Assembly (NCBI GenBank): GCA_017938145.1
Contig: JAGBCB010000003.1
Coordinates: 1 to 47,589 of the forward strand
Origin: Lachnospiraceae bacterium
GTDB lineage: Bacteria; Bacillota; Clostridia; Lachnospirales; Lachnospiraceae
Direction: 5' to 3'
Length of the DNA: 47,589 nt
Position numbers and translations under genes: made by a program. The stretch's first letter is position 1; every line of letters begins with the position of its first letter. Shown here piece by piece: positions 36,871 to 38,368 of this stretch. The notes beneath the pieces were generated by a model. It was given only the letters and a program-made list of their open reading frames with translations, searched no databases and was not told the origin of the DNA.

Positions 36871-36956
36871 AAAAAAAAATGGCAGGGAACTTCCCTGCCG
36901 TTAGATGGACCAGGGTCTTTCGACCAGCCCAAGTAGCAATGCTACTACCTTATTCT
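36871..36956 (-). ncRNA. Structured RNA upstream of DUF3800 remnant
   Basis: A transcript of about 86 nt from its own promoter. In RNA sense: AGUAGC-AUU-GCUACU hairpin, GGUC-GAAA-GACC hairpin with a GNRA tetraloop, then the terminator stem GGCAGGGAA/UUCCCUGCC followed by nine U. The ribosome site of the DUF3800 remnant starts right after the U run. Several RNA families named after DUF3800 are known to sit before such genes; I cannot say from memory which, if any, this matches. Confidence 0.68.
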
Positions 36957-37564: not shown

Positions 37565-37593
37565 CAAAAAGGCCAGTTCTTTCGAACTGACTT
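37565..37593 (-). terminator. Terminator after the tandem structured RNA
   Basis: RNA GUCAGUUC-GAAA-GAACUGGC, an 8-bp stem with one G-U pair and a GNRA loop, followed by C and UUUUU. About 60 nt before the downstream gene. Confidence 0.8.
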
Positions 37594-37600
37594 TGTAAAC

Positions 37601-37810
37601 AACTCTTTGGCAGGCGTAGCACTCTCCTGCATCTCTCAGGTTTCCCTTATCAATACCAACGGCGTGTGGTCGCCACGAAATATACCACCTCAAAGAGTTC
37701 TAAGCAAAAGGTTATCCGGCAGGCGTCGCAGCTCCTGCATCTCTCGGGTTTCCCCTGTCATACCAGCGGCGTGTGGTCGCAACGAAATTTACCACCTCAG
37801 ATAACCTTTT
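37601..37810 (-). ncRNA. Tandem two-unit structured RNA, unidentified
   Basis: Unit A is 37810-37706 and unit B is 37699-37601 in transcription order, joined by 6 nt. Each has a closing stem (A: AAAAGGUUAUC/GAUAACCUUUU; B: AACUCUUUG/CAAAGAGUU), unrelated in sequence but both perfectly paired. The shared core has GAGGUGGUA, AUUUCGU-GCGACCACACGCCG, UGGUAU, a GNRA-capped stem (A: GGG-GAAA-CCC; B: AGG-GAAA-CCU, a compensated change), GAGAGAUGCAGGAG and ACGCCUGCC, the last closing a GCAGG/CCUGC stem. A consensus promoter lies just upstream and an intrinsic terminator just downstream. It could be a tandem riboswitch for the next gene or an independent small RNA. It did not match the riboswitch or type III antitoxin consensus sequences I know. 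Confidence 0.8.
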
Positions 37811-37825
37811 GTTTATTCTATACAC

Positions 37826-37854
37826 ATTATATCTGATTTATGTTTTTTTGTAAA
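37826..37854 (-). promoter_or_regulatory. Promoter of the tandem RNA
   Basis: On the minus strand TTTACA (37854-37849), 17 nt, TATAAT (37831-37826). It overlaps the last codons of the upstream PBECR-like gene. Confidence 0.82.
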
Positions 37855-38215
37855 GAATACTCTTATTTCTCAAATAGTTCCGTAATCTTCTTTCACTGAT
37901 TTCCCACAATGAAATTATGGAGTTTTTAAAATCTAGTTCGTCCTTTGACGTACAAACTCTTAAAACCAGCTCAATATATGTATCTTCCTTTTTAATTTTT
38001 TTAATTATCAACCCGGTATTGGGGTGCTTATCTGCAATAACATAATCCGGATTTTCAACTGTTTCTTTCAAATACTCTTTTATTTTTTCATGCTCTCCCG
38101 GATGGCTTTCTTTTACGTGATGTATTCTTTCTTCCGTAATAATCACCTCATCCGTACGAATATCTTCCGAGATACAGCGAAAAATCTCCCTGTTTAGTTT
38201 TCCTACAAAATACAA
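37838..38215 (-). CDS. PBECR-like nuclease-fold protein (tentative)
   Basis: A 125-residue soluble protein. EVIITEERIHHVKESHPGEHEKIKEYLKETVENPDYVIADKHPNTG, then an LVLRVCTSK strand and NSIISLWEISERRLRNYLRNKSILYKK, matches small Firmicute proteins of the phage Barnase-EndoU-ColicinE5/D-RelE-like (PBECR) group as I remember them. Conserved candidates for catalysis are the ER..H and H(P) residues near 30-39 and the Arg cluster near the C-terminus. Nuclease activity is inference. The start is TTG at 38215 with GAGGAG upstream. It has its own promoter and a leader of about 110 nt; its 3' end carries the promoter of the tandem RNA. Confidence 0.62.
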   Translation of the reverse strand: MYFVGKLNREIFRCISEDIRTDEVIITEERIHHVKESHPGEHEKIKEYLKETVENPDYVIADKHPNTGLIIKKIKKEDTYIELVLRVCTSKDELDFKNSIISLWEISERRLRNYLRNKSILYKKT

Positions 38216-38339: not shown

Positions 38340-38368
38340 ATTATAGCACATCTCTTTTGGTTATGCAA
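38340..38368 (-). promoter_or_regulatory. Promoter of the PBECR-like gene
   Basis: On the minus strand TTGCAT (38368-38363), 17 nt, TATAAT (38345-38340); the leader to the TTG start is about 115 nt. Confidence 0.75.

Follow-up and report, generated by a model that had tools for sequence, protein, structure and literature searches.

A skipping-rope RNA behind a PBECR nuclease gene as a candidate RNA antitoxin

Type III toxin-antitoxin systems (ToxIN, CptIN, TenpIN, AbiQ) join a ToxN-like toxin to a pseudoknotted RNA that is present as a repeat array on the 5' side of the toxin gene, with a terminator between the two. A further RNA-protein pair is AbiF/RCd22 of a Clostridioides difficile prophage, in which a conserved RNA motif that precedes the gene is reported to neutralise its neighbour, a protein of the Abi_2/AbiD/F family, directly (PMC12373285). 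The polymorphic MuF toxins of temperate phages carry a variable toxin domain at the C-terminus of MuF or Phage_min_cap2, with a protective element directly downstream; a small ORF that may serve as an immunity gene is reported behind 89.4% of 191 toxin genes, and delivery of these toxins with the phage DNA has been hypothesised (PMC5576092). PBECR RNases are described from polyvalent proteins, with mRNA or CRISPR RNA as the suggested targets, and no RNA partner is named in the parts of that account drawn on here (PMC5512222). The skipping-rope RNA is known as an Rfam family for which the Rfam 14 paper illustrates a pseudoknot, and a published survey counts it among the phage ncRNAs used in host prediction (PMC8501573).

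The locus described here lies in a 47,589-nucleotide stretch of the genome of a Lachnospiraceae bacterium (assembly GCA_017938145.1, contig JAGBCB010000003.1), called the window below, and its parts are given in Table 1. It resembles the type III systems in that a predicted RNase stands beside a pseudoknotted RNA with a terminator-like site, but the proposed toxin is a PBECR rather than a ToxN-like protein, the RNA at PBECR loci is 3' of the gene and has its own promoter, and the skipping-rope RNA usually consists of one unit instead of a repeat array. AbiF/RCd22 is a close precedent, although its protein family is unrelated to PBECR and its RNA is placed on the other side of the gene. The arrangement of toxin domain and downstream protective element in MuF cassettes recurs in the phage relatives of the locus, where an RNA occupies the slot that in the described cassettes is held by a small protein ORF. 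The RNases of polyvalent proteins share their family with the window protein, and most of the large PBECR3 frames are without the RNA. The module proposed below would be type III-like in its action, and like a polymorphic-toxin cassette in its gene order.

Table 1. Parts of the locus in the window, listed in their order along the minus strand
Feature	Position	Strand	Basis and remarks
Possible nuclease-gene promoter, TTGCAT-N17-TATAAT	38340..38368	-	read by eye; absent from the scan list
PBECR2/PBECR3 predicted endoribonuclease, proposed toxin	37838..38215	-	Pfam; 125 aa; TTG start
RNA promoter, TTTACA-N17-TATAAT	37826..37854	-	scan, 11 of 12 consensus positions; overlaps the nuclease gene at its 3' end
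Skipping-rope RNA unit 1, cognate subtype	37711..37805	-	RF02924, 48.5 bits; pseudoknot CGUUGC/GCGACG; covariation
Skipping-rope RNA unit 2	37602..37698	-	RF02924, 49.3 bits; different pseudoknot, CGUGGC/GCUACG
Intrinsic terminator-like stem-loop with T-run, ends the RNA	37572..37591	-	scan

Both RNA units exceed the RF02924 gathering score of 36.7 bits in a covariance-model search with Rfam, and the window RNA is thus a member of the known skipping-rope family and not a new RNA. A preliminary description of this DNA had seen that the minus strand holds two structured units homologous to each other, as the Rfam matches and the covariation confirm; a claim that they match no known RNA falls with the Rfam scan. 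Besides the family match, that description overlooked that each unit contains a 6-bp pseudoknot and that a nuclease gene adjoins the RNA on its 5' side. The RNA stretch of the window folds better than all of 200 dinucleotide shuffles (z -3.74). The promoter and the terminator-like stem-loop that had been proposed for the RNA were both recovered by the scan; promoter-like sites are not enriched in this region (6 versus a shuffle mean of 5.0), whereas terminator-like sites are (6 versus 1.6). The TTG start of the nuclease ORF is preceded by GAGGAG.

A consensus structure drawn by the author from window unit 2 and 21 of the 34 clade-1 RNAs (22 related units in all), which biases toward high pairing since the same sequences were used for the count, is 99.0% paired with 13 of its 26 pairs changed on both sides, a result as high in none of 500 shuffles. 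Pairing drops to 30-47% when the partner strand is slid by one to three columns. The two-sided changes occur in the stem that closes the unit, in each of the two main hairpins and in the loop-loop pseudoknot, the last with 98.5% of its cells paired and three of its six pairs changed on both sides; the small 3-bp helix shows no two-sided changes among these units. The pseudoknots of the two window units differ from each other by matched changes. The exchange of GGG/CCC for AGG/CCU that was pointed out earlier in a GNRA-capped stem can be read in the sequence, and a shift in the alignment at this helix was the reason for leaving it out of the covariation count.

The protein encoded upstream of the RNA matches PBECR2 (PF18810) at 5.9e-11 and 43.1 bits and PBECR3 (PF18812) at 4.2e-07 and 30.3 bits, the Pfam gathering cut-offs being 27.1 and 30. 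In an alignment of 60 homologues from RNA loci, PBECR2 is matched by 59 and PBECR3 by 58 members, P56 is invariant, and H33, Y58 and K72 are at least 90% conserved. The AlphaFold model of the window nuclease is confident (pLDDT 93.7). A Foldseek search with this model does not confirm a BECR fold, giving no PDB match at E<=0.001, so that it is from Pfam and the conserved residues that the protein is called a nuclease; a contact-dependent inhibition chain appears weakly at rank 11 (E 0.4, TM 0.37). A sequence-profile search of the PDB returns nothing significant, and the window protein has no match of the ToxN, AbiQ, CptN or TenpN type in Pfam or NCBIfam. PADLOC gives a weak match for one of the 60 family members, and 40 of the 60 match phrog_29609 of PHROGs, which is unannotated in function.

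Matches to RF02924 are present in 25 of 150 family, 51 of 391 class and 21 of 299 phylum genomes, which are overlapping draws, and amount to 125 distinct hits, some below the gathering score, at 121 loci in 90 genomes; three of these loci, the window included, hold tandem arrays. With an HMM that was grown from the window protein, 75 of the 121 loci are seen to carry a PBECR frame. In 73 of the 75 the frame is on the same strand at the 5' side of the RNA, with the matched domain ending 14-138 nt before the RNA in 71 of the 73; partial frames at loci L011 and L068 run 5 and 48 nt into it. The other two of the 75, both in genome G802, are on the opposite strand and 3' of the RNA. Among the 46 loci without a PBECR frame are three with less than 450 nt of upstream sequence, one remnant, and orphans, some of these loci adjoining other toxin-like genes or nothing recognisable. 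Two further samples, drawn by exact RNA patterns alone and not independent of the first sample, some contigs being apparently the same, yield at least 86 linked loci among the 118 listed from GTDB genomes (6 of the 32 misses have less than 480 nt upstream) and PBECR-linked RNA on 37 of 69 IMG/VR contigs. Among annotated phage records, the window protein finds one, and searches with three other homologues find six Streptococcus, one faecal and seven Helicobacter records. Five of these records were inspected. In phiJH1301-1 (70.3 bits), Javan580 (70.3 bits) and the faecal contig (60 bits) RF02924 follows the PBECR gene or match at a distance of 18-33 nt; the Javan254 record ends at the PBECR gene, and one of the seven Helicobacter records, a prophage that has a PBECR-like stretch, shows no RF02924 in 5.3 kb.

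The association is also close when approached from the nuclease. In the 150 family genomes 19 of 20 PBECR2 hits are accompanied by a same-strand RNA 35-88 nt to their 3' side, and 16 of 18 PBECR3 hits by a same-strand RNA no more than 175 nt away; one exception in this set, in G135, is a 32-residue PBECR fragment. The related family PBECR4, which is present in more of these genomes, is RNA-linked in none of 38 cases, and the CptN control in one of 25. In the 391 class genomes 38 of 55 PBECR3 hits are RNA-linked, a count that includes G291, which a stricter genome filter misses (37 of 55 without it). The RNA accompanies 35 of the 38 PBECR3 open frames shorter than 200 aa and three of the 17 of 200 aa or more, and nine of the 14 unlinked long frames reach at least 350 aa. 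A nuclease of solo size is thus almost never without the RNA and the RNA is often without the nuclease, the pattern expected of a toxin and its antidote. Solo PBECR genes at L414 (G217), L415 (G397) and L097 (G084) lack a recognisable RNA and are natural test cases of whether the nuclease may persist on its own; at L415 an apparently decayed RNA copy can be read by eye. The PBECR without RNA in G399 is a partial domain hit (<200 aa).

The RNA also varies together with its nuclease. Distance matrices of the two correlate with a Mantel r of 0.79 over 64 non-redundant pairs (of 68), reached in none of 9999 permutations (largest permuted value 0.157), a correlation that could arise from linked inheritance alone. 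Within clade 1 the correlation is 0.65 (32 pairs, 0 of 9999 permutations); it is 0.26 when only the pseudoknot arm is compared (26 pairs, 3 of 9999). In four multi-copy genomes (G149, G036, G427 and G411) the RNA subtype tracks its own nuclease and not the genome. Each of the three tandem arrays mixes units of different sequence type. Unit 1 of the array in G013 is of the type found with the nearest relatives of its nuclease, and its second unit belongs to a different type. In the window, the pseudoknot arm of unit 1 is common to L010, L013, L102 and L112, and that of unit 2 is otherwise seen with other nucleases, at L065, L106, L107 and L111.

Promoter-like sites are a regular feature of these RNAs, and the position and quality of the RNA promoter are conserved over the linked loci. 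The best promoter just 5' of the RNA has on average 1.44 mismatches in 12 to TTGACA/TATAAT at 68 linked loci, compared to a mean of 3.70 in mononucleotide shuffles, and a terminator-like site is found within 120 nt 3' of the RNA at 45 of 67 linked loci, compared to 1% in shuffles. In clade 1 the -35 element overlaps conserved codons, and part of its conservation may therefore be coding; others among those inspected have TTGACA. At the 53 loci that are not in the paired set the promoters are weaker, with 2.75 mismatches versus 3.97 in shuffles, and 28 of 52 have a terminator-like site. One of the two models put forward in the preliminary description, a two-unit small RNA with its own promoter and terminator, is hence upheld by the covariation, the scan and the conserved sites.

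It appears probable, judged from gene order and sequence comparison, that the skipping-rope RNA is an RNA antitoxin or immunity factor for PBECR nucleases, and that the two constitute a toxin-RNA conflict module of two parts. The PBECR nuclease would be the toxin, and the RNA, transcribed separately from the same strand, would neutralise it, most likely by direct binding; a strong promoter, within the toxin gene or directly after it, would keep the RNA in excess. Tight linkage and subtype matching would be equally expected if the RNA were instead a cofactor, guide or processed substrate, such that PBECR uses the pseudoknotted RNA for its activity or targeting, and a constant fold with subtype-specific loops would also suit such a use. 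However, the many RNA loci without a PBECR frame speak against this reading, as do the well preserved RNAs of the unpaired set (median 54.0 bits, n=53, seven with partial frames, versus 55.0 bits, n=68, for the paired set, both sets being thresholded). No unpaired variable segment resembling a guide is seen by eye, and the position behind MuF matches that of immunity elements; a cofactor role is accordingly considered unlikely.

Still less likely is a trans-acting sRNA that pairs with the nuclease mRNA, in the manner of type I or type VIII systems, or with host mRNAs. The Rfam type label of RF02924 is sRNA, promoter- and terminator-like sites of its own are what such an RNA would have, and the founding paper of the family, that of Weinberg in 2017, reportedly proposes a trans-acting sRNA role. 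Against antisense pairing, predicted duplexes of the RNA with the start region of the cognate nuclease gene are no more stable than with non-cognate ones (-23.4 versus -23.6 kcal/mol, 67 pairs), and 6724 of 9999 permutations give values at least as low. Since antisense pairing thus finds no support and a cofactor fits poorly, direct neutralisation of the protein is favoured as the most likely mode by which an antidote RNA would act.

The other model of the preliminary description, a two-aptamer riboswitch controlling the membrane protein downstream, is very improbable. A terminator-like site after two structured units would agree with it, but this site ends the RNA, tandem units are confined to three of the 121 loci, and the conserved partner lies upstream. 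The constant downstream gene that such control would lead one to look for does not appear: the first downstream ORFs at 67 linked loci, 65 in number, fall into 56 clusters with 26 on the opposite strand, and no homologue of the membrane protein encoded downstream in the window, at 37506-37012, is found among ORFs within ~1.5 kb of 29 other RNA loci (phmmer, E up to 1). Just as improbable is passive hitch-hiking, in which the RNA would be a phage or mobile-element part, e.g. for packaging or integration, merely beside PBECR, because although many loci are phage-borne and the pair stands just before the annotated att site of Streptococcus phage phiJH1301-1, the spacing is kept across capsid-module, att-proximal and varied chromosomal neighbours, and RNA subtype tracks the nuclease. 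In phiJH1301-1 (L403, 2405-2878) the nuclease, annotated as spbA protein, and the RNA are located between the lysin and the att site, an interval often used by lysogenic conversion genes.

The window PBECR stands alone, without a MuF fusion. In 13 of the 37 linked IMG/VR contigs the PBECR frame exceeds 300 aa, and all seven of these 13 fused proteins that were checked by Pfam are MuF or minor capsid protein 2 (min_cap2) proteins with a C-terminal PBECR2 and the RNA behind. With six more, taken from among the first 80 genome loci out of 118, the 13 form a set of 19 fused loci; five of these lack enough 3' sequence, and among the other 14, ten have no small RBS-bearing ORF between the RNA and the next ORF of at least 140 aa and four have one. 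A MuF-like protein is also found upstream of the RNA at ten of 78 unlinked loci (32 viral, 46 genomic). Three of four such proteins run on Pfam give MuF over the cut-off without PBECR, and the fourth, at L134, matches MuF below the threshold and has an end that is DUF4258-like. In several of these unlinked loci (e.g. L134, L265, L270, L271) a small ORF lies between the MuF-like protein and the RNA. It looks as if the toxin domain has been exchanged at the unlinked MuF loci and the RNA kept.

It is plausible on balance that skipping-rope RNAs are immunity genes for MuF-PBECR proteins and their solo relatives, with subtypes accumulating in arrays and as orphans against non-cognate nucleases. In some phages the MuF or minor-capsid PBECR protein would be loaded in the head and delivered with the phage DNA, as others propose, and the RNA in the immunity-gene slot would protect the cell, whether producing phage or lysogenic. 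Units of other subtypes, extra or orphan, would then confer immunity to nucleases other than the cognate one.

Orphan RNAs and other neighbours provide several separate observations. CptN was considered as a second toxin partner and rejected, given how rarely the RNA is placed behind it. In the single case, in G131 (L005 1501-2090, G131:C13), RF02924 begins 18 nt after the stop codon of a CptN gene identified by NF047359 (1e-45) and PDB 4rmo (9.5e-21). This gene has a promoter-, RNA- and terminator-like leader of its own, read by eye, and in view of that leader and the CptN linkage count the G131 RNA is taken as an orphan with a toxin gene nearby. The remaining non-PBECR neighbours (ParE, PIN, BrnA, a weak HicA, a nucleotidyltransferase) were likewise set aside as single cases each. 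The genome of the window itself (G000) has three PBECR4 genes, on contigs C25, C39 and C72, none near a skipping-rope RNA, and an orphan skipping-rope RNA of high score (76.1 bits) on C15. At L115, L139 and L277 an orphan skipping-rope RNA comes directly after a shared protein of 91-111 aa that belongs to no family, and the larger proteins ahead of this small one also resemble each other; the small protein is possibly the immunity protein of another toxin.

The RNA family and the protein family are each already known, and what is new is their pairing and the antidote reading, neither of which appeared in the literature searched, a search of titles and the starts of abstracts with most subscription papers and preprints outside it. 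If the reading is correct, the pairs would represent a toxin-antitoxin class in which the RNA stands behind the toxin under its own promoter, RNA antitoxins would extend to another toxin family, the skipping-rope family would gain a testable function and the PBECR nucleases a partner. Phage-delivered polymorphic toxins could then use RNA immunity, to our knowledge the first case of a polymorphic toxin system with an immunity factor made of RNA, and mixed RNA arrays could decide which phages a cell survives.

A second structured RNA is found in the window a short way further along the minus strand. This is a DUF3800-XI RNA (36884-36931, minus strand; RF02975, 60.8 bits) with a promoter-like site at 36991-36963 and a terminator-like site. 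The ORF behind it, from ~36857 on the minus strand, stops after some 20 codons and has no Pfam match, and its start looks like that of a DUF3800 gene. The order of RNA, terminator and gene is the layout of a type III system and offers a lead for the DUF3800 RNAs.
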